A stretch of 42,037 nucleotides of DNA from the IMG/VR virus record IMGVR_UViG_3300021135_000019, positions 1 through 42,037 of that record; one strand, written 5' to 3'. Position 1 is the stretch's first letter. Every line of letters starts with the position of its first letter. Shown here piece by piece: positions 8,882 to 41,896 of the stretch. The translations under genes were made by a program, and so were the position numbers. The notes beneath the pieces were generated by a model, which searched no databases, had not been told where the DNA came from, and saw nothing but the letters and a program-made list of their open reading frames with translations. The DNA is from a virus.

Positions 8882-9435
8882 TAGATCCTCGCCATCAAAG
8901 TAGTCTTTACTGCAAACTCCAGATCTTCAATAGAAGAATTGTTATGCACATAGGCATCAAACTCCCAAGCATCTAGATCATGCTCTGAGACGTGATCATT
9001 GACTGCCTTTACCCCATTACGCTCTACACGCCATATCTGTGCGTTGCCTTCTCTAAAAGGGGACTTAAGTACTACAGCCTCATTTTGAAAGCGCACATCA
9101 GTTACAACGTAGTTACCGTCTCCTGACATAGTACGAATGGCTTTAATAATCCAAATATCTTCATCAATAATAGTTCTAGCACCTACTCCCAATGCCTGGA
9201 GTAAACGACGGACTTCAGGTTCTTGTTTAGCAACATCCCAACCATCTCGGTCTACAACAGTTTTTAAATCCCATCCCCCACCGTCAAACTCAAACCCAAC
9301 TATGGGATTCATTTTGTATAGAAGTTCACGAATAGGGTCAGCAAAAGCTACACGCTCAAACCCATGGTTCTCTACTAGATACTTAGCTACAGTGTCTTTA
9401 CCTGACTGGGCGTACCCAGATAGTCCAATGATCAT
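8881..9435 (-). CDS. Deoxynucleoside monophosphate kinase
   Basis: The 184-residue protein begins 'MIIGLSGYAQSGKDTVA', a P-loop with Gly12-Lys13 of the kind found in phage deoxynucleotide monophosphate kinases (T4 gene 1 type) and related AAA-type kinases. Downstream features are 'ADPIRELL', 'RRLLQALG' (about residues 81-88) and 'VVTDVRFQNEA', a common order in this family. It would phosphorylate dNMPs to dNDPs to supply replication. Start ATG 9435 overlaps the primase stop by four bases (ATGA). It is the only nucleotide-metabolism gene I recognise in the window. Confidence 0.85.
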   Translation of the reverse strand: MIIGLSGYAQSGKDTVAKYLVENHGFERVAFADPIRELLYKMNPIVGFEFDGGGWDLKTVVDRDGWDVAKQEPEVRRLLQALGVGARTIIDEDIWIIKAIRTMSGDGNYVVTDVRFQNEAVVLKSPFREGNAQIWRVERNGVKAVNDHVSEHDLDAWEFDAYVHNNSSIEDLEFAVKTTLMARI

Positions 9436-10400
9436 ACAAATGCCCTTTCTCCAAATACTGAATGTTTAGCCTTATCCACTCCTAGTATAACCTCATCTAC
9501 CCCCATATCGCCAATATCTTTGGCATCTGTGGTGTAGTTAAAGAACTTACACTCCAACCCATTTTCTTTTAGCTTTGCTAGCATCTCTTTAGATGCCTTC
9601 AATCCAGCTGCGTCTACCTTTGGATTATCAAAGGCAACGATTAAACTATCAGCAGACCTCATAAGGTTTAACTGATCCTTGCTGAAGGATGCGCCGTAAG
9701 TTGCAACCCCTCCTTGTATTCCCAATGACCATAGCTTTACGCAATCAAGCGGAGACTCAACTATGATCATAGGGCCGCCCTTATATTGACCAAAGCCAAA
9801 AAGAGTTTGAGACTTCTTAACTCCTGTAGGACGGTTACGAAACAGCCGGGTCTTCTGACCCTTCTCCTGCCAACCCATAAGCTTTCCTGAATACGGGTCA
9901 CGTATAGGAAGAACCCAGGCGTCCTGTCTTGTATCCCAAACTACTCCGTAGGCATCAACGGCCTCCGTAGACAATCCTCGGGCTTCTAAAGCCCATTGTG
10001 GAGGAGATGTGTAGACTGCTAAACGGGCTTCTGACATCTCAAGTACACGGGGAATTGGGACATAAGAGTTCTTAGCCTCCTCAAGCTGCTTTACCAACAG
10101 CTCAAAGTTGACCTCAATATTTTGTCGTAGCCAATCCTTAGCAGCGTCAAAATCAAGACGGCCCCACTGAGTCTCAAACTCATTGATCTCAGCTACAAGC
10201 GTAAAGAGGTTGCCCTTATACCCGCAAGAAAAGCAGTGGTGCACACCGGTCTCTACATTAACAGACCAAGACGGATTAGAGTCTTGACGACCGGTACGCT
10301 CCAAGTGCATTGGGCATAGGCCGATAAGCTCATCGCCTCGCTGGGATACCTCAATACCCATACGAAGCAAAGCTGTTTCTACATCGCCCTCACGATACAT
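9432..10400 (-). CDS. DNA primase (CHC2 zinc finger plus TOPRIM)
   Basis: The 322-residue protein has a CHC2-type zinc motif (Cys29, His32, Cys56, Cys59) that would contact template DNA. A TOPRIM domain follows, with Glu215 in 'IIVESPLD' and the acidic pair region 'FDNPKVDAAG' starting at Asp258. It would lay down RNA primers for DNA synthesis. There is no helicase domain; the DnaB-like helicase is separate, four genes upstream. The spacing between Asp258 and the 'DAAG' group is longer than the usual DxDxAG, a small family variation. Start ATG 10400 lies after a short gap behind the TM/zinc protein gene. Confidence 0.87.
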   Translation of the reverse strand: MYREGDVETALLRMGIEVSQRGDELIGLCPMHLERTGRQDSNPSWSVNVETGVHHCFSCGYKGNLFTLVAEINEFETQWGRLDFDAAKDWLRQNIEVNFELLVKQLEEAKNSYVPIPRVLEMSEARLAVYTSPPQWALEARGLSTEAVDAYGVVWDTRQDAWVLPIRDPYSGKLMGWQEKGQKTRLFRNRPTGVKKSQTLFGFGQYKGGPMIIVESPLDCVKLWSLGIQGGVATYGASFSKDQLNLMRSADSLIVAFDNPKVDAAGLKASKEMLAKLKENGLECKFFNYTTDAKDIGDMGVDEVILGVDKAKHSVFGERAFV

Positions 10401-10912: not shown

Positions 10913-11082
10913 TTTTCCCTAATCCAACAATCGTTACAAATTGCTTTGGCCTTGTTGACCGCTTCTAGATCTGTATAGAATTCTGGAAAGAATAGATTTG
11001 GATCTTCCTCTACGCAGAGTTGTGTGCCGTTAAAGATACTAGATTTGCTGCCCAAAACTTCCGTACTCCTCAAATCGTCCAC
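10807..11082 (-). CDS. WhiB-family Fe-S transcription factor, canonical spacing
   Basis: This WhiB-like protein of up to 91 residues has cysteines at 23, 49, 52 and 58 (the usual C-x2-C-x5-C end), the turn 'GIWGG' at 70-74 and a basic C-terminus (RDRKRLKK). It would hold a 4Fe-4S cluster and bind the host principal sigma factor or DNA to alter transcription. The start shown is GTG 11082, overlapping the helicase gene by 44 bases. A GGGAGG sequence sits almost on top of it, so a downstream TTG could be the true start. Together with the divergent copy near 412-750, this phage carries two WhiB proteins. Confidence 0.87.
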   Translation of the reverse strand: MDDLRSTEVLGSKSSIFNGTQLCVEEDPNLFFPEFYTDLEAVNKAKAICNDCWIREKCLDYAMQSSNLDGIWGGTTPRDRKRLKKLKTSLM

Positions 11083-12274
11083 CCTCCCAATCCCAAAGTA
11101 GGTCGCTGCTTGCTGGGCCAGAGTTACGGCTAGCTACAATACGAAGTTCACGGGATGAGTCATCATCTTCATCTTGCTTCTGTAGACCCAAAATAACATC
11201 TGAGTCCTGGAAGAATGAGGATGAGTAACCAATAGAGTCGGCACTGACTTGGCGCTTCTTCATCTTCCAAAGAAGTACCTGAGTAGATACAACCAACGGA
11301 ATCTCATAGCGCTGCGCTAGACGCTTTAAGTCACGAGTAATGGATGTCAAAGCCTGTGGAGTACCAGCCTCACCAGACCTCTCATCAATCATAAGATAGA
11401 CACCATCTACAAAAACAATCTCCGGCCTGATCTTCTCAATCTTTGCCTGAAGACCTGAGACTGTCATAGCAGAAGCAGAATCTGTTAGATAGAACTTTTG
11501 CATGTTTTCCATGCGCTTCAAAGATTCTTTATAACGCTTCTCTTCATCAAGGTTAAGCTTTCCACGTGTGAGACGTGAGTGTGCAATGTTGGCACGCATA
11601 GCATCATGACGATGTTGCTGCTCAACGTTAGTCATTTCAAATGACTGGAACATAGGAACATGCCCACGCTCATGAACGTTTACAGCAATCTGCATAGCAA
11701 GAACAGACTTACCTGTCTTAGGTGGGGCAATGATCGTGATCAACTGACCGGCCTGTAGCCCAGCAGTCGCCTCATCAATAGTGCGGAAGCCTGTTGGGTA
11801 TCCAAGTAGACCACCATCACGTGTCTTAACATCAAGGTACTCTTGATAACGCTGTTCAGGATTATCAGTCAGATCAAGATCAGAGCTTTGAGAGACGCCC
11901 TCTTCGTATAGCTGAGCAACACCCTTAGACATCTCAACGATAGCAGCGCTGTGATCGCCTGCAGCAATATAATCTGCAGCGTTCTGAACAATCTCAATAG
12001 CATGCTGACGCTTGCGGTAATCAATAAGCTGGTCTACTAGGTACTCTAATGAGTCCTCAACAGCAAGTAGGCGGTAAGTAGGAAAGTTATCCTTTACCGT
12101 TACTGCAGTAGGAACCTCTTCGTACTTAGTCCAGTGCTGACGGATAAACTTCCACACAGCCTTGTTCTCTGCAACAAAGAACCAATCATCTTCAATACCA
12201 GCTTCCATAGCCGGTACGATCTCCCTAGAGTAAACTACTTTAGAGATCAGCCTCTCTTCATTATCTGCCGCCAT
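11039..12274 (-). CDS. dnaB: DnaB-like replicative helicase
   Basis: The protein is about 411 residues if begun at ATG 12274 (MAADNEERLIS), which I prefer. The longer frame up to 12334 begins inside the previous gene with an unlikely sequence. A small N-terminal DnaB-like domain is followed by the RecA-type motor: Walker A 'APPKTGKS' at 183-190, 'FQSFEMT' near 209-215, Walker B 'VFVD' at 287-290, and a late 'ASRNSGP' arginine-finger region. It would unwind the phage replication fork as a hexamer. The DnaC-like loader and initiator are encoded just upstream and the primase downstream. It ends in TAG. Confidence 0.9.
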   Translation of the reverse strand: MAADNEERLISKVVYSREIVPAMEAGIEDDWFFVAENKAVWKFIRQHWTKYEEVPTAVTVKDNFPTYRLLAVEDSLEYLVDQLIDYRKRQHAIEIVQNAADYIAAGDHSAAIVEMSKGVAQLYEEGVSQSSDLDLTDNPEQRYQEYLDVKTRDGGLLGYPTGFRTIDEATAGLQAGQLITIIAPPKTGKSVLAMQIAVNVHERGHVPMFQSFEMTNVEQQHRHDAMRANIAHSRLTRGKLNLDEEKRYKESLKRMENMQKFYLTDSASAMTVSGLQAKIEKIRPEIVFVDGVYLMIDERSGEAGTPQALTSITRDLKRLAQRYEIPLVVSTQVLLWKMKKRQVSADSIGYSSSFFQDSDVILGLQKQDEDDDSSRELRIVASRNSGPASSDLLWDWEGGRFEEYGSFGQQI

Positions 12275-12677
12275 TGTCTTGCCCCAAATCCATATACCAA
12301 TGCCCATAACGCAAACCACGTTCGGGTATATCAATTACATGCTTAACCTCTGGCCTATAAGGTAGTTCTGCCACGAGGTCTGCCACAACGTAATACGCTG
12401 TCGCATAGTTAAATGGATTAGTCCCTAGATTATCTAGGTCCTCAAGTACCTCATCCATCTCTTGCTGTGTGTAATCAAAACCTACAAGCTCTAACGAGTA
12501 CTCATAGGTATCCCTAAATCTCCAAAAGGTTGCTAGCGCTAACCGATTGTAGGAAACTTCTTCTTCGGGTATCGTAATCCCGAATACTTTTTTAAGAGAC
12601 GGGCGACGATCTATAATGCAGTCAAGAGTTACGATAACTCTTTTGGGAACTTCATTTGAAATATCGCCCCCACGCAT
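12261..12677 (-). CDS. Hypothetical phage replication-region protein
   Basis: I do not recognise this 138-residue protein. It has a 'VIVTLDCIIDRRPSLKKVFG' beginning, an aromatic middle (FWRFRDTYEYSLELVGF) and an acidic helix 'QQEMDEVLEDLDNLG', and it looks like a small soluble alpha/beta protein. It is encoded between the SWIM-finger protein and the DnaB-like helicase and overlaps the chosen helicase start by 14 bases, so the pair are probably coupled. The C-terminal residues (LGQDNGGR) have no obvious motif. A helicase accessory role is possible from context only. Confidence 0.7.
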   Translation of the reverse strand: MRGGDISNEVPKRVIVTLDCIIDRRPSLKKVFGITIPEEEVSYNRLALATFWRFRDTYEYSLELVGFDYTQQEMDEVLEDLDNLGTNPFNYATAYYVVADLVAELPYRPEVKHVIDIPERGLRYGHWYMDLGQDNGGR

Positions 12678-12679
12678 AG

Positions 12680-12976
12680 TTAAAGTACTTCTACTCTGCC
12701 ATACTTACAAAGAAACTTTCTGAACTCTGATGGATCTGTTCTAGCTACTTCACTCTCTTCGGGTGTTGCAGCTTTAGAAACTTCTACTGGATACACCCCA
12801 TCGTTATCCATCATGCGACTCTGTACAAACTTTGTGTGTTTGCACATAGACCTAGAAGAATAACCGAGACAGTTGCAACGCAACCTTGCGCTCTGTAGAT
12901 TGATCTCTACCTCGTGTACTCCAGTATCAGATAGGAAGATCTGGGTTGCTTGCCATTCGCTCAATGTCTTATCCAT
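12680..12976 (-). CDS. SWIM-type zinc-finger protein
   Basis: The 98-residue protein contains C-x-C-x8-C-x-H at Cys34, Cys36, Cys45 and His47 within 'RLRCNCLGYSSRSMCKH', the SWIM zinc-finger pattern known from bacterial and eukaryotic DNA- or protein-binding proteins. A beta strand pair precedes it ('HEVEINLQSARL'). It would bind nucleic acid or a partner protein. Start ATG 12976 overlaps the DnaC-like gene by eight bases. It lies inside the helicase-loader group, suggesting a role in replication initiation, but no phage homologue with a tested function comes to mind. Confidence 0.72.
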   Translation of the reverse strand: MDKTLSEWQATQIFLSDTGVHEVEINLQSARLRCNCLGYSSRSMCKHTKFVQSRMMDNDGVYPVEVSKAATPEESEVARTDPSEFRKFLCKYGRVEVL

Positions 12977-13631
12977 TCTTTCTGCGATCCCCTCCAGGTG
13001 CTTTAACTAAGACCAATCCAAAAGCTTCGTTGATGAAGCTCTCCATCGGATCACCGTATTTGTTCCACTCTTCTATCGCAGTGTTTGATGTAACTAGCGT
13101 AGGTAGTCCTCGGTTGAACCTTGCACGAAGCAACTCGTCCAGAACATTTTCAGCCCACTGGCTCTGTGTTCGGTACTCCTTGCCCACATCATCCAATACA
13201 AGTACATCCAAATTCAGTGTACCCGCATTGCCATAGATCCTGTCAAGTTTGAGTTGGTTCTCCATCTTGTCATCGTCATCTGACCAGCTAGCCTTCTTGA
13301 GCCTTAGGAAGCTTGGGTAGTCTATAAACTCCCCCACCGGTTTTCTTAGATCTCCCGGCATAGTCTTAATTAGCTCTTGAAGGGCTACAGAGGCCAATGT
13401 GGTCTTGCCATGACCTGGAGACCCTATGTATAGGAGTCCGAGGCCTGAGAGGCGGCTTCCAGGGCTTCTAATGACCCCTCCAGCTTGGACTGTACTGACC
13501 CACTCCATAGTTGCCTTTTTAGCCGGGGTATCCTCAAGGTCTGAGAACTCCATCCCCATTGACTTGAATGGTACTCCTGAGTTCATGATCTGTTTACGGA
13601 TACTCGGACCTAACGTATCAAGCTTGATCAT
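12969..13631 (-). CDS. DnaC-like helicase loader ATPase
   Basis: This 220-residue AAA+ protein has Walker A 'GSPGHGKT' at 70-77, Walker B 'LVLDD' at 144-148, and sensor-like 'LVTSN' near residue 180, as in DnaC/IstB/DnaI-type ATPases. It would load the DnaB-like helicase encoded two genes downstream onto origin DNA opened by the initiator encoded immediately upstream. Its start directly abuts the initiator stop (ATG 13631 after TAA 13632-13634). The N-terminal part before residue 60 is short and may carry the helicase contact. An IstB-type transposition ATPase is unlikely, as no transposase is nearby. Confidence 0.87.
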   Translation of the reverse strand: MIKLDTLGPSIRKQIMNSGVPFKSMGMEFSDLEDTPAKKATMEWVSTVQAGGVIRSPGSRLSGLGLLYIGSPGHGKTTLASVALQELIKTMPGDLRKPVGEFIDYPSFLRLKKASWSDDDDKMENQLKLDRIYGNAGTLNLDVLVLDDVGKEYRTQSQWAENVLDELLRARFNRGLPTLVTSNTAIEEWNKYGDPMESFINEAFGLVLVKAPGGDRRKNG

Positions 13632-14561
13632 TTACTCTCCTCCAAGTAGCCTTAGTAACTTCTCCTGTTGTGCAAGTGCTTCTGGTGTTTCATAATCCAC
13701 CGACTTCTTTGCAACGATTCCGTGAACCGATGGGTAGAACGCAAAGAAGCGTTGGTAGAGCGGCTTACCGATTCCAGCATCTCGGATGAGACGGCTATCG
13801 TTAAAGAACATTCTGATAGCTTTTAGAATCTGTACACGCTGTACGCCTTCGCCTACCTGCTTGTTAATCCAGCCTGCAAGACGTACGTTGTTAACTTGGC
13901 TCGGTACATTGGGAACCTTCTCGTGACAGAGCTGGTAGAACTCTGCAACCAAATCGCCTGTACTCCAGAGTTCCTCTGGTGAATCGTGGCGGTTACGTCC
14001 AGCCTTCTCAGTCTTAGTAAGCTTGTACTTGGCGTTTAGGCGAGTCTGACGGTCATCAACCTGACCTACTGCTCCTGGGGCTGCCTCAATTTCTTCTGCT
14101 GCTCTAACACGAGCGGGCTTTACCTGAGGTTCTTCCCCATCAAGATTCCAAGGCATCTTCTCTCCCTCCCGAGCTTGCTCGGGTATAGATAATAATCCGT
14201 TAGGATTATTATCTATATTAGTACTAGTAGTGTTATCACTAATAGATATATAGTTATCAATATATAGATGCCCTGACTTTCCCTGACCTGAAAACCCGTT
14301 GTCGGTAGGAATAAGCTTTAAGGCCTCTTCTGTAAATTTAAGCTGGGATACCCACTGGCCGTTGTTCTGCATACGGACAGAGCGGATGTATTTTGCTTCC
14401 TTCAACTCGTTAATGGCAGTCTGAAGAGCGTCACGGCCCTCCATGACTTCATTGGATGCTTTTAGCTCATCTGCGGAGATCACACGACCCTTTGCCTCAA
14501 AAACGGTAAAGAGTGCACGAGCTCTCAAAGAAAGCTTTGAATTTAAACTTGGATGAATCAT
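13632..14561 (-). CDS. Replication initiator-like protein with N-terminal winged helix
   Basis: The 309-residue protein has an N-terminal winged-helix region at about residues 10-80 ('ARALFTVFEAKGRVISADEL', then 'ALQTAINELKEAKYIRSVRM' in outline). A long polar linker spans about 88-192. A C-terminal helical domain at about 195-280 includes 'EELWSTGDLVAEFYQLCHEK' and 'GWINKQVGEG', reminiscent of DnaD-like or phage-replication-protein C-termini that contact the helicase loader. It would bind the origin and recruit the DnaC-like ATPase encoded next. The linker DNA is an A/T-rich block full of dyads and repeats, like lambda O, whose gene contains the origin. The initiator role is inferred from domains and order. 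Confidence 0.65.
   Translation of the reverse strand: MIHPSLNSKLSLRARALFTVFEAKGRVISADELKASNEVMEGRDALQTAINELKEAKYIRSVRMQNNGQWVSQLKFTEEALKLIPTDNGFSGQGKSGHLYIDNYISISDNTTSTNIDNNPNGLLSIPEQAREGEKMPWNLDGEEPQVKPARVRAAEEIEAAPGAVGQVDDRQTRLNAKYKLTKTEKAGRNRHDSPEELWSTGDLVAEFYQLCHEKVPNVPSQVNNVRLAGWINKQVGEGVQRVQILKAIRMFFNDSRLIRDAGIGKPLYQRFFAFYPSVHGIVAKKSVDYETPEALAQQEKLLRLLGGE
14168..14269. repeat. Candidate replication origin: dyads and iteron-like repeats inside the initiator gene
   Basis: A GC-rich dyad (CCCGAGC-tt-GCTCGGG, 14168-14183) abuts a perfect 15-base inverted repeat: TATAGATAATAATCC (14184-14198), a 4-base spacer, then its complement (14203-14217). Two imperfect direct repeats follow, GTTATCACTAATAGAT (14232-14247) and GTTATCAATATATAGAT (14253-14269), 21 bases apart. 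The whole block is very A/T-rich compared with its surroundings and encodes only a polar linker of the initiator-like protein. This combination is what an origin with initiator sites and an unwinding element would look like. Confidence 0.5.
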
Positions 14562-35385: not shown

Positions 35386-36405
35386 CTAGTTGTTCTGGGA
35401 CTGGTAGTTATCTAGAGTACTACCTTGGTTGTACTGAGAAGGTGAAAGAAGTATACCAAACTGTGTGGCAGTCTGGGTACTGGAGGCTGTATAGGTAATT
35501 GGGCTTCCTATAGGGGTTGTAAGGGAGTCAGAGTACGGGGTGACCGTAATTGTATTCCCGCCCGATGTAACGACCTTTAAGCTGGCAGCAACGGCTGATA
35601 TGGCGGTACGTAGTACCGTTGTTACGGCATTTGCTACAGACTGATAAACATAGACAAAGGCTGGGTAGCTGACGCTACCTCCCTGGCATGTTGAACAGCC
35701 ACAGGTATGGGTATATGAGGAAGTACACTGCGTGTAATAGTAATAGTACGCACAGGAATAAGAGCATGGGGTGTAGGTAGAGCATACCCCATAATGGTTG
35801 TAGCAATATGCGACGTAGTATAGGTAAGAACCTCCGCCGTATGTAGCGTAATAGTTACATATGGTACCTGTAATACATACGTAATATGAGGTTCCTCCAC
35901 CCGTACATCCACAGCCAGCACCTACAGGTCCAACTGTCTGAGATGAAGCACAGGCGCTACATGTTTGACATCCACAGGTGTAGTAGTAGACCGTGTTAAC
36001 TACCTCTTGGCCAGCTGCTACGCCAAACCAGTTACCGCTATCGGTAATCCACTGAGCAGCTCCAGTGCCGTTAGTTGTGGCACCAACAGTCTGGATATTG
36101 CTAGCGCTACCAGTATCAATAGCGGCAATAGAGTAGTTAGAGGCAGAGTCATTGGATTGAGCCTGGGATCCATTGGCAAACCAAGTACCTCGGGTAGCAC
36201 TCCAAGCTTGCCCGCTATCGGCTGTGCCTAGATTGCCTGAGGTTGTACGGTTAAAGGAGTCAATGACAGAGGCCTTAAACCATTGCTTCCATTGACCGCC
36301 AACTTTAATAAAGGCTGAAGTAGCCCCATGCCATGCTCCGCTTACCTTTACAAGGATACCAATGCTTGTACCCTGTCCGCCATTTACATTAACTTTACCT
36401 GGCAT
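35386..36405 (-). CDS. Structural protein with Cys/Tyr-rich inserted domain
   Basis: Started at ATG 36405 (MPGKVNVNGGQG), which overlaps the upstream stop by one base, the protein has 339 residues; the frame extends to 36558 but that part lies inside the fibre gene. Residues about 49-130 ('DSFNRTTSGNLGTADSG', 'WFGVAAGQ') look like a concanavalin-A-like tail domain, which resumes after residue about 245. Between them, residues 140-240 hold 16 Cys and 22 Tyr in about 100 residues, opened by 'YTCGCQTC' and closed by 'HTCGCSTC'. It is probably a fibre or adhesin. The Cys/Tyr part has no family I can name; disulfide cross-linking or metal binding is inferred. Confidence 0.7.
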   Translation of the reverse strand: MPGKVNVNGGQGTSIGILVKVSGAWHGATSAFIKVGGQWKQWFKASVIDSFNRTTSGNLGTADSGQAWSATRGTWFANGSQAQSNDSASNYSIAAIDTGSASNIQTVGATTNGTGAAQWITDSGNWFGVAAGQEVVNTVYYYTCGCQTCSACASSQTVGPVGAGCGCTGGGTSYYVCITGTICNYYATYGGGSYLYYVAYCYNHYGVCSTYTPCSYSCAYYYYYTQCTSSYTHTCGCSTCQGGSVSYPAFVYVYQSVANAVTTVLRTAISAVAASLKVVTSGGNTITVTPYSDSLTTPIGSPITYTASSTQTATQFGILLSPSQYNQGSTLDNYQSQNN

Positions 36406-37337
36406 TACTGATACACAATCCAGATGTCTCCATCGTTGCCCTGGCCTGTTGTTGGTGCTGTTGTAGAGACCCATGTATTGCGGACAACGCCTAGAGAAGT
36501 TGAGGCGGCTGTTACTGAAGCATTTGCTGTTGCAAGATAAACTGTTGGGGTCTGCCATGAAAGGGCAGAACCATTGCTGCTAAGAACTGTACCAGCTCCA
36601 CCAATACCCAAGCGACCTACAGCTGAGGCGCCCGTTCCCACCACAAGATCACCAGCAGCACTAACTGTGCTTAGTGGAATCTTTGTAGTATCTGTTGGGG
36701 TACCCCAAGCAACTGAGGTGCCGTTCATAATAAGAGACTGACCGGCAGCCCCTTTAGCAAGGTTAGTTACGGTGGCATTACCTGAACCAATAAGAAGATC
36801 TCCCGCAGCTGTTACAGTTGAAAGAGGGATCTTGGTATTGGCGTTATTATTGGCGGCAGTCGTAGCAGCCGTAAGGGTATTGTAGTCAGTGCTATTAACA
36901 TAGAGAACGTTACTAGAACCCACAGCTGGAATACCAGAGGAGTTAACATTGAATCCCAATACAGAGCCAGAGGTGTAGGTCTCAATAAGGTTAGCTGTTC
37001 CTGAGCCTACCTTTAATACAAGGCCTTTTGTAGAGCTAGTGGTAATAGTGCTTCCACCGGTAATGCTGACATATGGACTATTAGCCACACCATTTACCAA
37101 GCCATACTCAATGTTATTGAGGCGATCGCCCAAGGTAGACCAACCGGTAGTCTTAGCAAAAGTTCCTGAGTAGGTAGAAATCAGGGGGCTTTGATTGGTC
37201 AGGGCAGAACCAAGGGTTGTCTCAATAGCAGTAATCTCAACCTGTAGTGAGTTTACGTTATCAGCCAAAACGGTGCTGACAAGGTCAACCTCTGGTTGGT
37301 AGGTTTTAACCTGATTTGGATATGAAGCTGTTGCCAT
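36405..37337 (-). CDS. Tail fibre-like protein with repeated shaft motifs
   Basis: The 310-residue protein has an N-terminal attachment-type segment ('PEVDLVSTVLADNVNSLQVEI' in outline) and a Gly/Ser/Thr-rich body containing two copies of 'KIPLSTV(T/S)AAGDL(L/V)(I/V)G(S/T)G' at about residues 169-186 and 219-236. It ends 'TTGQGNDGDIWIVYQ', a trimeric-fibre style ending. It would form part of the receptor-binding apparatus. ATG 37337 has GGAG upstream. Unlike the three larger fibre genes upstream, it lacks the C-terminal 'TLQGEL..CQRY' module. Confidence 0.75.
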   Translation of the reverse strand: MATASYPNQVKTYQPEVDLVSTVLADNVNSLQVEITAIETTLGSALTNQSPLISTYSGTFAKTTGWSTLGDRLNNIEYGLVNGVANSPYVSITGGSTITTSSTKGLVLKVGSGTANLIETYTSGSVLGFNVNSSGIPAVGSSNVLYVNSTDYNTLTAATTAANNNANTKIPLSTVTAAGDLLIGSGNATVTNLAKGAAGQSLIMNGTSVAWGTPTDTTKIPLSTVSAAGDLVVGTGASAVGRLGIGGAGTVLSSNGSALSWQTPTVYLATANASVTAASTSLGVVRNTWVSTTAPTTGQGNDGDIWIVYQ

Positions 37338-37531: not shown

Positions 37532-38737
37532 TTACAACTCCGCACTAAATGCTAGGTATCCGCCAGCAACATTGTTATTTAGCAATGTATAAGGGCGATA
37601 CTGGGTCAAACCGCTGGCAACTGGTGCGTATAATCTTGCACCGTCTATACCGCTTCCACCGCCAGGAATGGTCGGAGCAGCGTTGAGTGCAGTAAGCGTT
37701 ACACCATCCCATAAAGCAAGATATGAAACTGTTGTTGGTGATTCAACCGCTGTTGGGCCTACACGCATTGGAACTGGGAAGAATATAGTTACTTCTGCCT
37801 GAGTTGTTGAATAAGCACTTCCTTGAGCCAAAGGTGGGTATAGGCCATTCAAAGAAGTTCCATTGCGCTTGTAGTAGTACCTCTGACAGGCATTTAACTC
37901 CCCCTGAAGTGTTCCGCCAGCGCGGGAGAAGGCAGTTGCTACTGAGCCTAATTCCAACTGAACCTGAGCAACCGTCAATGTTGCACTAGCCGACATTGCA
38001 GCCGTTGTTGTGAAATAAACACGAACTGTTTTGGCATTTGAAGGAATAGTTGTTGTCGCGGTTTTTTTCACAAGCGAGGATGTTGTTGATACTGTTTGTG
38101 TAAGCCCACTATAAGTTCCAGCATTCCAAGCAGCATCAACTGTTGTTGAATATTCAATGTGAATATCTACGCTTTGAGCAGCCGATGTAGCCAAATATGC
38201 GGAAACTGTAACTGTTTGACCAGCCAAGTAAATTGAGTTGAGCGTTTCAATTGCTTGTAAGATGATTGGGTTTCCGCTTGTTGCGCAAGTATAAGTTATT
38301 GAGTTTTGCGCGTTGCTAGGAACAAGGGAAGTATTTTGAGAAAATGTGCCGCCGCCAGAAAATGTGGCTACAACCCATCGGTCAGCCAAATAAACTCCAA
38401 GGCTTGAGGTAGAAGTTCCTCGTTGCCAAATGTCAAAGTTTCCGTTGATGAGCCAGTTCTTGCCACCAGCCAAAGAAGGCCCTGCCCAAGCAACGCCTGT
38501 GCTGGCAGAAGAGTTTGCAACGAGTGTTGTGCCGTCAGCGCCTACGTTTAAAGTGCCTACGGTGCTAGCACCAGTGCCTAGAGCTAGATCGCCTTTGGCG
38601 GTATAGGTAGTTACTGTTGCAGCGTTAGCTACATCGGCTACTGAGTGGGTATGTGGGCCTACGCCAACAGGTACCCATTGGTTATTGACCCCATCCCAAA
38701 CGTAAGCGGGACGACTGGTATTACTAAAATTTGCCAT
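37532..38737 (-). CDS. Tail fibre paralogue 3 with glycan-binding-type C-terminal module
   Basis: The 401-residue protein has an N-terminal part 'WVPVGVGPHTHSVADVANAATV' in outline, a short shaft, a 'GKNWLINGNFDIWQRGT' block (about 97-113), a beta-sandwich, then 'LELGSVATAFSRAGGTLQGE' and 'LNACQRYYY', ending 'AFSAEL'. This combination is common in phage fibres that bind surface polysaccharide. It is one of three paralogous fibres that alternate with small companion genes. ATG 38737 overlaps the companion stop by one base. Confidence 0.8.
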   Translation of the reverse strand: MANFSNTSRPAYVWDGVNNQWVPVGVGPHTHSVADVANAATVTTYTAKGDLALGTGASTVGTLNVGADGTTLVANSSASTGVAWAGPSLAGGKNWLINGNFDIWQRGTSTSSLGVYLADRWVVATFSGGGTFSQNTSLVPSNAQNSITYTCATSGNPIILQAIETLNSIYLAGQTVTVSAYLATSAAQSVDIHIEYSTTVDAAWNAGTYSGLTQTVSTTSSLVKKTATTTIPSNAKTVRVYFTTTAAMSASATLTVAQVQLELGSVATAFSRAGGTLQGELNACQRYYYKRNGTSLNGLYPPLAQGSAYSTTQAEVTIFFPVPMRVGPTAVESPTTVSYLALWDGVTLTALNAAPTIPGGGSGIDGARLYAPVASGLTQYRPYTLLNNNVAGGYLAFSAEL

Positions 38738-38910
38738 TATTCACCTGCCTGTGGTGTAGAAGAGTTGGCTGCAAGTGTGGCTAGATAAGCTTGATACATA
38801 GAATTAGAAGGGTCGGTGGGAATTTGCCAACCATCTGAGCGAATGATTAACGATGTTGATGGCTGACCTGTCATTGGGTCAGTTGGGATTGTGTATGTGT
38901 ATTCGTTCAT
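38737..38910 (-). CDS. Tail-fibre companion protein, copy B
   Basis: The 57-residue gene starts MNEYTYTIPTDPMTGQPSTS and ends with 'YQAYLATLAANSSTPQAGE'. It shares with copy C nearly identical DNA at both ends and most of its sequence, and its C-terminal 'IPTDPSNSMYQAYL' block matches the small Tfa-like endings used by tail-fibre assembly proteins. It overlaps both neighbouring fibre genes by one base (TAATG on each side), so it is translated as part of one coupled cassette. Function inferred only from this pairing. Confidence 0.72.
   Translation of the reverse strand: MNEYTYTIPTDPMTGQPSTSLIIRSDGWQIPTDPSNSMYQAYLATLAANSSTPQAGE
38742..38768. repeat. 27-bp direct repeat, cassette B copy
   Basis: Identical to 39995-40021. 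It covers the 3' end of the small companion gene, next to the start of the following fibre gene. It is long enough to support homologous exchange between cassettes. Confidence 0.85.
38876..38901. repeat. 26-bp direct repeat, cassette B copy
   Basis: Identical to 40135-40160. It covers the 5' end of the companion gene (residues YTYTIPTDP in outline). Together with the 27-bp repeat it brackets each companion gene with conserved ends and more divergent middles. Confidence 0.85.
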
Positions 38911-39989
38911 TATAACTCCGCACTAAACTCTAAGTATGCTGATGTTGAGTTTTCGGTTCGCAGATAGCAACCATAAGCAACTGTTGCTCCCGATACTCCC
39001 GCAATTAAACCTGCTGAATCAGCAGTTGTTCCATCACCTTGTAAAATTGGAGCAGAAGTACCGATTGCAGAATCTCCTTGGCGAACTGTAAATGAACCAG
39101 AAGCGTTGTAAGCAGGTACGCCTCTCATCGTTGTTCTCAAGGGAAACACAAATTGACTTTGAGTTGTATTCAAATTTTGCCCAATAGCAATACGCCAGTA
39201 TGCAGCCGCACTTCCAGCGGTAAAGCGTTGATAGTACCTCTGGCAGAGGCTTAACTCTCCTTGGAGTGTGCCTGATGCTGTGGTGAAAGGTGTGGCTACC
39301 GAACCTGCTTCTAACTGCACGCCCCAAAAATCTACATTTACGCCAGTTGTAGGCGTGTACAAGAGTAAACCTATTGAACTTCCTGCGCCAATAGTTTTTC
39401 CAACTACAGATGGCAAAGTTGTTGTATAAGTAATTCTTTGCCAAGAAGTTGTCAGGTTGTAATTTATATTTGTTGCCAAGACATTTGCGGACCCGCCTGA
39501 ACCAAAGTATTGGTAAATCTGTGCTTGCGCTCCTGAAACTGCACTTGCGGCTTTAGCCCAAAATGAATAAGTAACCGTTTGCCCCGAAAATGTGCGCACA
39601 TCCTCAACTGGTTGTTCAAAATATGTAGCAGATGTTGTGGCATTTACTCTTGCAAAATATGGAGCGGAGTATCCTGTGATTGGTGCTTGAGCGGCAGAGG
39701 GGGATGATGAGTAATCAAAGGCAATTTGTGTAACAGTCGTTGATGCTGAACCATAGTTATACACACGCCAGCGGTCTAATGTGTAATTCAAGCCCGTTCC
39801 ACTTGGATTGACTGTTCCCCCACGTTGCGCCAAAGCAAAATCGCCATTGATGATCTTATTCTTGCCAGCAGCATACTGAGCGGGGTTCTCAAAAGCATAA
39901 CCGTTACTTTGGTTGGTATCAACAGTAAGTACTTGACCATTAGTACCTGAAGTACCTAAGATATTTGAGTTGTCTCTAGCTCTAGTCAT
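38910..39989 (-). CDS. Tail fibre paralogue 2 with glycan-binding-type C-terminal module
   Basis: The 359-residue protein starts MTRARDNSNILGTSGTNGQV and has 'AAGKNKIINGDFALAQRGGT' near 40-59, then a beta-sandwich, then 'QLEAGSVATPFTTASGTLQG' and 'ELSLCQRYYQRF', ending 'LEFSAEL'. It has a shorter N-terminal shaft than its neighbours, so it may attach through another fibre. It would bind a cell-surface glycan. Cassette position: between companion copies B and C. Confidence 0.8.
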   Translation of the reverse strand: MTRARDNSNILGTSGTNGQVLTVDTNQSNGYAFENPAQYAAGKNKIINGDFALAQRGGTVNPSGTGLNYTLDRWRVYNYGSASTTVTQIAFDYSSSPSAAQAPITGYSAPYFARVNATTSATYFEQPVEDVRTFSGQTVTYSFWAKAASAVSGAQAQIYQYFGSGGSANVLATNINYNLTTSWQRITYTTTLPSVVGKTIGAGSSIGLLLYTPTTGVNVDFWGVQLEAGSVATPFTTASGTLQGELSLCQRYYQRFTAGSAAAYWRIAIGQNLNTTQSQFVFPLRTTMRGVPAYNASGSFTVRQGDSAIGTSAPILQGDGTTADSAGLIAGVSGATVAYGCYLRTENSTSAYLEFSAEL

Positions 39990-40169
39990 TTATGCACCTG
40001 CCTGTGGTGTAGAAGAGTTGGATACGAGTGTGTCTTTATTGAGGTATGCCTGATAATCGGCATTTGATGGGTCGGTTGGTATCCAAGCACCATCTGAGCG
40101 AACAATAACTTCCGTAGAAGGCTGACCAGTAAAAGGGTCAGTTGGGATTGTGTATGTGTAAGTTTCCAT
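39990..40169 (-). CDS. Tail-fibre companion protein, copy C
   Basis: The 59-residue gene starts METYTYTIPTDPFTGQPSTE and ends 'SNSSTPQAGA'. It is the closest paralogue of copy B, with identical DNA over 26-27 bases at each end. It overlaps the upstream fibre gene stop by one base (TAATG) and its own stop is shared with the downstream fibre start (GCATAAATG). Like the other copies it is probably a fibre assembly or capping factor; this is inference from gene pairing. Confidence 0.72.
   Translation of the reverse strand: METYTYTIPTDPFTGQPSTEVIVRSDGAWIPTDPSNADYQAYLNKDTLVSNSSTPQAGA
39995..40021. repeat. 27-bp direct repeat, cassette C copy
   Basis: Identical to 38742-38768 at the 3' end of the companion gene in the neighbouring cassette. 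Confidence 0.85.
40135..40160. repeat. 26-bp direct repeat, cassette C copy
   Basis: Identical to 38876-38901 at the 5' end of the companion gene in the neighbouring cassette. Confidence 0.85.
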
Positions 40170-41896
40170 TACAACTCCGCACTTGCAACAAAGGATGCTT
40201 GAATGTTATATCCTGGGGTAGACCAGTTGCCAGAAGCATTGTAAAAATTATAACTTCCCGTACTAATGATAGAAGCACCAAAGGTTCCATTGCTTCCTGA
40301 CGATGCAGTAAATGAACCGTTAGTAAATGTTGGCGCAGTTCGCATTGTTACAGGAAAATAAAACGCTCCGCCAGTAATACCAGCAGTGATTGTGTTTCCT
40401 GCCATCTGGTTTGTTGCTACATAGCAATACCTCTGACAAGCGGCTAACTCTCCTTGGAGTGTGCCACCTGCTCGGCTGAATGGGGTGGCTACTGAGCCAG
40501 CCTCAAGTTGCAATCCCCAAAGTTGAATTGTTACCGCAGCCGATGTTCCGCAGTATCCATAAATTTGAACTTTGCTGCTAGGGCCGAGTGTCTTACCTGA
40601 AATAGATGGCATCGCTCCTGTGTAGGTAAAACGCTGCCAAGTGGTAGTCAAGTTAAATGCTGGTTGTGGGCCAGCAACTTGAGTTGAGCCACCTGTTCCA
40701 AAGTTTTGATTGAAACCAAAGCCGTAACCAATAGTTCCAGAAGTTACTCTTCCCCAGAATGAGAAAGTAAAAGTTTGTCCAGCGAGTGTACGCACATCTT
40801 CTATGGAGTGTGCCATATCGGTATATGAACCGCCTGAGCTTTTGGCAATCTGCAAATAGTAAGCAGGTTCATATCCAGAAATCGGATTGCCAGGAGTAAA
40901 TGCTTGCTGGCTTATCGTCATTGTTGAATCAGTACCGTTGAAGAATCTATCTGCTACCGCACCATAAGTTCCTGTGTAGGTAGTTCCACGCTGCCAAATA
41001 TCCATACCACCGTTGATGACAAAGTTCTTTCCAGCCGCTACTGAAGGCCCTGCCCAAGATAAACCTGTGCTGGCAGAAGAGTTTGCCACGAGTGTTGAAC
41101 CGTCAGCTCCGACATTGAGTGCTGTTTCACTTCCGGATCCGGTTCCAACCAGGATGTCGCCCTTGGCTGTGAACTGAGAAAGCGGGATATATCTAGCATC
41201 AGATTGGGATTGGGTATATGTATTAGTAACGCCCATAGTGATGGTGTTAAATACTTCTACGGTATCTCCAGTTACTGTGGCTTGAGTTAATGTGATTGAG
41301 GTACCGTTAGTGGCGGTGTAGTCAACACCCTTAACAATCAAGATACCATTGACATAGACTTCTTCATAACCCGCTGTATAGGCAAGAGTAGTTGTGCCAT
41401 CATCTGCTAGGCCTGAGAGAACGGTAGTTCCTCCTGTAGGAGTTTTCTTCCAGCGTACTAGCTGTAGACCTTGAGTGTTTCCCGCCGTATTAACCCAGAC
41501 CATACCAGGGGTATAGGTTGTTGGTTCTGTAGTCTGAGCAATGTTATTGCTAGACATCTGAACAGCTGGATAAGAGACCACTGTGAGGATATCTGAAACG
41601 GCAAGTGGGTTAGCTAAAACAATGGTAGAGCCGGTAGTGGCTGTATAGTCAGATCCACGTACTAGTAGAACACCATTGAGGTAGACATTCTCCCCGCCTA
41701 GTGGATAGGTAAGGGTAGTTCCATTATCGGAAGCTCCAGAGAGGGTAGTCTCCCCACCTGTCCCTGTGTGGGTCCAGTAGAGTTCATAGGCTCCGCCCAA
41801 TACTAAGTTCCAAGTAGTACCGTCATAGGTCCATTGCCTACCGCCCTGGTAGATGGACGTGCCAGCTACTGGGGACGAGGGGAACGAAATGGCCAC
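40169..41896 (-). CDS. Tail fibre paralogue 1, largest copy
   Basis: The 575-residue protein uses GTG 41896 with GGAG six bases upstream. Residues about 37-110 and 141-216 are tandem beta modules of the 'VYLNGVLLVRGSDYTATTG' type, known from fibres of many environmental phages. A shaft ('AKGDILVGTGSGS') leads to 'AAGKNFVINGGMDIWQRGTT' (about 287-306), a beta-sandwich, and then 'LEAGSVATPFSRAGGTLQGE' with 'LAACQRYCY', ending 'VASAEL'. It is the longest of three paralogues and the only one with the two N-terminal modules, so it may be the fibre that attaches to the baseplate. Confidence 0.82.
   Translation of the reverse strand: MAISFPSSPVAGTSIYQGGRQWTYDGTTWNLVLGGAYELYWTHTGTGGETTLSGASDNGTTLTYPLGGENVYLNGVLLVRGSDYTATTGSTIVLANPLAVSDILTVVSYPAVQMSSNNIAQTTEPTTYTPGMVWVNTAGNTQGLQLVRWKKTPTGGTTVLSGLADDGTTTLAYTAGYEEVYVNGILIVKGVDYTATNGTSITLTQATVTGDTVEVFNTITMGVTNTYTQSQSDARYIPLSQFTAKGDILVGTGSGSETALNVGADGSTLVANSSASTGLSWAGPSVAAGKNFVINGGMDIWQRGTTYTGTYGAVADRFFNGTDSTMTISQQAFTPGNPISGYEPAYYLQIAKSSGGSYTDMAHSIEDVRTLAGQTFTFSFWGRVTSGTIGYGFGFNQNFGTGGSTQVAGPQPAFNLTTTWQRFTYTGAMPSISGKTLGPSSKVQIYGYCGTSAAVTIQLWGLQLEAGSVATPFSRAGGTLQGELAACQRYCYVATNQMAGNTITAGITGGAFYFPVTMRTAPTFTNGSFTASSGSNGTFGASIISTGSYNFYNASGNWSTPGYNIQASFVASAEL

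Follow-up and report, generated by a model that had tools for sequence, protein, structure and literature searches.

Does the middle of a phage initiator gene also serve as the origin at which the phage begins replication? The question is raised by a gene for an initiator-like protein in the virus record IMGVR_UViG_3300021135_000019, the whole of which (42,037 nt, the window) was analysed and for which a lambda-O-like origin inside this gene had been predicted. The part of the gene that encodes a disordered linker does contain a conserved DNA element of the non-coding type, and we lean towards reading positions 14165-14245 as the core of an origin that lies within the initiator gene. The features on which this reading draws are collected in Table 1.

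Table 1. Features of the initiator-like gene and of the neighbouring replication genes (window coordinates)
Feature	Position	Strand	Basis or remark
Initiator-like gene, 309 aa: winged helix (wHTH), disordered linker, helical C-terminal domain	13632..14561	-	ORF; AlphaFold2 (AF2) model; weak PHROG matches; HTH_36 in 6/32 homologs
DNA for N-terminal winged helix, residues 12-82	14316..14528	-	AF2 pLDDT mostly 76-89; best structural matches are to wHTH regulators
Iteron-like tract of ACTAGT/ACTAAT-type hexamers, encoding TTSTN	14218..14245	-	Ser/Thr codon bias
P1, perfect 15-bp palindrome, coding-strand spacer TAAC	14184..14217		stays perfect with other sequence in relatives
P2, GC-rich palindrome adjoining P1, arms CCCGAGC and GCTCGGG, spacer AA	14168..14183		sequence
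Shine-Dalgarno-like GGAGG, 8 nt before internal ATG	14165..14169	-	most relatives have AAGGAG, 5-8 nt before the start
Nested in-frame ORF, start codon 136, 174 aa, MPWNLDGEE...	13632..14156	-	ATG/GTG conservation; AF2 fold
DnaC-like AAA+ helicase loader	12969..13631	-	phrog_50 6.9e-27; IstB 4.6e-06
DnaB-like replicative helicase	11039..12334	-	PF03796 8.2e-31
DnaG-like primase	9432..10400	-	Toprim, Zn_ribbon_DnaG

Every gene examined in the window lies on the minus strand. The replication module comprises PolA, SSB, an SNF2 helicase, primase, DnaB and a DnaC-like loader, and tail genes are present, including one for the sheath. The initiator-like gene is followed by the DnaC-like gene, two small ORFs and the DnaB gene, in agreement with the loader and helicase genes named in the original prediction. 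A WhiB-like Cys-rich protein can be read from the sequence at 412-750, and the closest cultured relatives of DnaB belong to Streptomyces phages (e.g. BRock, 34%); these two observations suggest an actinobacterial host for the window phage, and the hosts of the whole uncultured phage group are probably also actinobacteria. Elsewhere in the window, a 390-aa ORF (35386-36558) with an odd Tyr/Cys-rich stretch (YCYNHYGVCSTYTPCSYSCAYYYYYTQC) overlaps a same-strand ORF at 36405-37337, and three adjacent genes (37532-41896) match the C-terminal part of one tail-fibre family, phrog_4492, and are perhaps duplicated receptor-binding proteins.

An AlphaFold model built with 32 relatives gave a winged helix at residues 12-82, disorder at 87-147 and a helical C-terminal domain, which is the domain order that had been predicted. 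The initiator-like proteins have weak PHROG matches to replication initiation proteins: phrog_678 (“O-like”) was matched weakly by 6 of the 32 homologs (best value 1.4e-4) and not by the window protein itself, and phrog_186 (DnaD-type) was matched weakly by nine. The HTH_36 domain was found in six of the homologs and the RepA_N Pfam domain in none. A PDB search with the sequence profile of the protein yielded nothing credible, and comparison of the C-terminal domain model with PDB folds, including DnaD and RepA_N, gave no credible match. No binding site for the winged helix was identified.

Full-length relatives were absent from the collections searched, with no whole-protein relative found in cultured phages, none among plasmids and none in a protein search of bacterial genomes; an exact P1-arm pattern matched five bacterial contigs, and these matches were taken as chance. 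One divergent homolog matches only the N-terminus of proteins from Arthrobacter, Microbacterium, Rhodococcus and Staphylococcus phages, and the genes for five such N-terminus-related cultured-phage proteins that were examined carry no long linker hairpin. HTH genes with repeat-like linkers occur in the Microbacterium phages Kozie and MO526 (L373 and L374; e.g. CCTACGTTGGGTA in Kozie) and in the Arthrobacter phage Rizwana (L370; e.g. TTAATAACACT), and these genes may possibly contain classical intragenic origins. Split genes with hairpins lying between two ORFs were considered, and none was noticed; short partial matches begin at contig ends, with one frameshift-like exception. In L069 (4732-5620), an initiator homolog is broken by an apparent frameshift into ORFs of 231 and 77 aa.

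Both palindromes lie in the DNA encoding the disordered linker of the winged-helix protein. P1, TATAGATAATAATCC-GTTA-GGATTATTATCTATA, is paired at 15/15 positions around a 4-nt spacer, exactly as predicted, and the predicted GC-rich dyad, P2 (CCCGAGCTTGCTCGGG), adjoins it with no gap. The 42-kb window contains no other perfect inverted repeat of at least 11 bp with a spacer of 2-8 nt, and none above 11 bp arose in 300 synonymous-codon shuffles of the gene. The A/T-rich block of the original prediction was also recovered: no 90 nt of the contig are richer in A/T than a stretch within the linker DNA (76%, against a mean of 55%). An intrinsic terminator was considered and rejected: no T run follows P2 on either strand, and the terminator scan lists no site there.

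We compared the element among 132 distinct genes from viral contigs, collected by scans in which DnaB, the primase and the initiator served as seeds. P1 was detected in all but about six of these genes, and the second hairpin nearly always follows. The only clear losses are those of L149 and L089, which lack both P1 and P2; the other four P1-less calls are best explained by truncation of the gene (L035 and L154) or by short ORFs with P1 outside the scanned stretch (L070 and L051), and a separate scan showed that L070, L051 and L052 do carry P1. The P1 loop differs in L361, and 3 nt separate P2 from P1 in the group L324/L326/L359. Loss of the dyads from close relatives, named beforehand as the observation that would count against an origin, was looked for and did not occur. 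The position of P1 is constant, with arms mostly of 13-15 bp, even where protein identity falls to about 40%. Of 14 related contigs that were examined, 12 have a single long P1 each, the exceptions (G012 and G017) having shorter P1 stems, and the other long inverted repeats were mostly terminator-like.

The best-scoring P1 stems comprised 34 versions among the 132 genes. Stems of at least 9 bp contained 423 Watson-Crick, 4 G-T and 12 mismatched pairs in total. Departures from Watson-Crick pairing were found mainly near the outer ends of the stem or in P1-less genes. In the 14 P1 alleles with a tetraloop, two-sided changes had occurred at 10 of the 15 pairs and one-sided changes at none, and the covariation score was 0.667, against 0.141 for shuffled alignments and at most 0.099 for slid partners. 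The percentage of pairing in this 14-allele alignment is inflated, its rows having been picked as distinct alleles with a palindromic stem; what is informative in it is the variety of pairs and the absence of one-sided changes. The 29 distinct best versions of P2 in relatives gave 172 Watson-Crick pairs, five G-T pairs and one mismatch. In relatives with 75-84% protein identity, the P1 arms TATAGATAATAATCC, TATAGATATAGATAC and TATAGATAAAGATAC are each accompanied by an exact complement, and synonymous positions are better conserved in the linker than elsewhere in the gene (p 4e-6 to 7e-4 per pair). Conservation at the DNA level beyond the codons, proposed as a check, was thus observed in both the compensatory changes and the synonymous sites. 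Since changes are two-sided, with no one-sided change and almost no G-T pairs, it is the pairing rather than the sequence that appears to be conserved, and conservation of the hairpins at the DNA level is very likely on these alignments. With G-T pairs almost absent, DNA is a better candidate than RNA for the structured molecule. A caveat is that template switching from one arm to the other can restore perfect pairing whatever the function (PMC8604942).

The repeats flanking P1 differ from those initially described. Within the 66 nt before P1, 175 of 291 Ser codons are AGT, against 119 of 1109 elsewhere, and 238 of 279 Thr codons are ACT, against 373 of 964 elsewhere. This codon bias forms ACTAGT/ACTAAT hexamers; these are the conserved direct repeats, and they lie upstream of P1 in the gene. 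The P1/P2-less homologs L149 and L089 contain long ACTAGT/ACTAAT arrays that form imperfect palindromes. The two iteron-like repeats of 16-17 bases reported previously (at 14232 and 14253, 21 apart) were reduced to a 10-bp ungapped match that decays in relatives, and the linker contains no lambda-type iterons of 18-19 bp. Nor did the suggested check by GC skew prove informative. The cumulative skew of the window has its minimum at about 14.2-14.5 kb, but this minimum vanishes at fourfold-degenerate sites, where C exceeds G on both sides of the element with no lasting switch; the skew is thus no evidence either for or against an origin. Such a minimum coincides with the element in only some relatives, and we set GC skew aside as origin evidence, as it reflects gene content.

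The lambda-O-like layout thus holds for the placing of the dyads, between the winged helix and the helical C-terminal domain and ahead of the loader and helicase genes, but not for the iterons or the skew. As in lambda, where the iterons are located in the middle of the O gene and are themselves imperfect inverted repeats (PMC7466680), the candidate origin lies in the DNA for the middle of an initiator with an N-terminal DNA-binding part, together with an A/T-rich tract. Lambda has four iterons of about 19 bp (six in Stx phages), whereas the window has a long perfect palindrome and a GC-rich one, of variable sequence, with a hexamer tract in place of iterons and a conserved internal start; the loader is P in lambda, but a DnaC-like AAA+ protein encoded beside the initiator in the window. 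SPP1 provides a second parallel, as oriL lies within gene 38 and the genes for the initiator, the loader (39) and the DnaB-type helicase (40) are consecutive; the available part of that account describes an origin of direct repeats and an A/T-rich unwinding element, with no covarying hairpin pair (PMC6316719). The RepA_N plasmid pSK41 also has its origin inside rep, in the DNA for a linker of dispensable protein sequence that joins a wHTH N-terminal domain to a helical, replisome-contacting C-terminal domain (PMC5703833), but it uses four Rep boxes, and the window family has no RepA_N Pfam match. The window gene is placed outside the lambda O type by iterons and loader, and outside RepA_N by domain. 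In the open-licence literature searched, we did not find covarying abutting DNA hairpins, hexamers and an internal start combined in one linker.

This internal start, directly after the dyads, was no part of the original prediction. In the 70 genes scored, the codon two positions ahead of a conserved TGG was ATG in 59 and GTG in 11, with a Shine-Dalgarno-like site (at least 5 nt of AAGGAGGT) in 66 of the 70, usually at a spacing of 5-8 nt. Val at this codon is always encoded by GTG, which accounts for 121 of the 1349 Val codons in these genes. In a wider gene set, the codon was ATG in 89 genes and GTG in 17, and the pattern used did not locate it in 26; L149 and L089 keep the start while lacking the hairpins. 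Judging from this conservation, the start is likely to be used for a C-terminal protein, which in the window would have 174 aa. In-frame short forms are known for other initiators, including RK2 TrfA and phiX174 A*. In pIGRK (RepR/RepR'), an in-frame internal start likewise gives an N-terminally truncated initiator (PMC6854812), but the start in the window follows a pair of DNA hairpins and the putative short form is the C-terminal domain. Streptomyces phage BRock encodes a stand-alone 153-aa protein, gp115 (L014 763-1224; probably A0A1J0GW17), which is encoded two genes upstream of dnaC and resembles the C-terminal half of the initiator, if weakly (Foldseek probability 0.92 but E 0.43; 5.4 bits by sequence). 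Unlike the window protein, it has no fused winged helix, and there is no inverted repeat of at least 8 bp around its gene. This likeness fits an internal-start product that is a protein in its own right, but is suggestive only.

The position of the hairpins just upstream of a conserved Shine-Dalgarno site and start codon means that a role in RNA also fits. P1 and P2 might be mRNA hairpins that control the internal start or mRNA processing, with no part in replication; the predicted fold in the window clade sequesters both the Shine-Dalgarno site and the ATG, and UAAC loops are also known in RNA. However, an RNA stem should show some one-sided G-U changes, and there were none at the 15 P1 pairs of the 14 alleles, although this argument is weakened in that G-U pairs could likewise be lost when the arms are repaired by template switching. 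The start-sequestering outer stem is not kept in other clades, and a closed multi-branch RNA built on it was rejected, the stem being unchanged throughout the window clade and missing from the other clades. Furthermore, L149 and L089 retain the start but not the hairpins, and no Rfam family was matched at the gathering score (RsaA came closest, with 25 of the 50 bits required), although the element may still be an RNA of a new, unlisted kind. We consider a purely RNA-level function unlikely, but it is the main rival to the origin.

The same DNA-level evidence, the single copy of P1 in most genomes examined and the primase gene within the module would also suit a DNA hairpin site with a purpose other than origin firing, such as single-strand priming, recombination or resolution, or a hairpin promoter. 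This seems decidedly improbable, as an origin accords better with a place within the initiator gene, of the kind seen in lambda, SPP1 and pSK41, and neither a recombinase nor a virion RNA polymerase was seen beside it.

P1 could instead be an operator, bound in double-stranded form by a symmetric dimer such as the initiator itself or a repressor of the downstream genes, since the outer arm bases TATAG.TA are nearly constant and the winged helix structurally matches dimeric regulators. Arm distance and wHTH distance are correlated overall (0.72), as expected from shared descent, but the arms differ symmetrically at several positions between proteins with 96-99% identical winged helices: those of L235 and L074 are 99% identical and accompany the arms TATAGTTAAAGATAC and TATAGTTAATAATCC, respectively, both perfect. 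Identical arms also occur with wHTH domains only 41% identical. A dimer site would tolerate asymmetric change, of which there was none at the 15 aligned pairs, apart from a few outer mismatches. Because near-identical domains carry different perfect arms, it is the pairing itself that is favoured, and an operator is very unlikely. Least probable of all, and scarcely credible, is a functionless palindrome kept perfect by template switching alone, a process reported to homogenise the arms of inverted repeats (PMC8604942): P1 keeps one position, with arms mostly of 13-15 bp, in widely diverged proteins, a second hairpin of independent sequence adjoins it, and the related genomes examined have hardly any other long inverted repeat that is not terminator-like.

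The nested origin is supported by the conserved pairing, the presence of one P1 in most genomes examined, the hexamers, the start signals and the setting of initiator, loader, helicase and primase genes. It is weakened by the losses in L149 and L089, the loop of L361, the spacing in L324/L326/L359, the lack of an identified wHTH site and the hairpin-less cultured actinophages. The layout is best read as one resembling lambda O, SPP1 and pSK41, to which it adds a second, nested start and DNA hairpins conserved in structure. More tentatively, and at somewhat less than even chances, we propose an origin recognised by shape, through abutting hairpins conserved in their pairing and flanked by hexamers and by an internal start from which the helicase-recruiting half is produced separately. 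On the nested-origin reading in general, the target of the N-terminal winged helix would be the hexamer tract, the constant outer parts of P1 or both, and melting of the A/T-rich tract would allow P1 and P2 to fold as DNA hairpins or a cruciform. The hairpins would then keep the strands apart, or mark the place of assembly for the C-terminal domain, the DnaC-like loader and DnaB. The internal Shine-Dalgarno site and the in-frame ATG or GTG right after the hairpins would yield a C-terminal protein without the DNA-binding domain, which may act as a helicase-recruiting partner or as a regulator.

The origins of metagenomic phages are rarely recognisable from sequence. Here, the initiator genes of more than 100 related phages contain a DNA element conserved in structure, and its proposed roles as an origin, in hairpin-based helicase loading and in the production of a short initiator are therefore directly testable. 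Covariation without G-U pairs indicates, in addition and with unusual clarity, that DNA secondary structure is under selection within a coding region.
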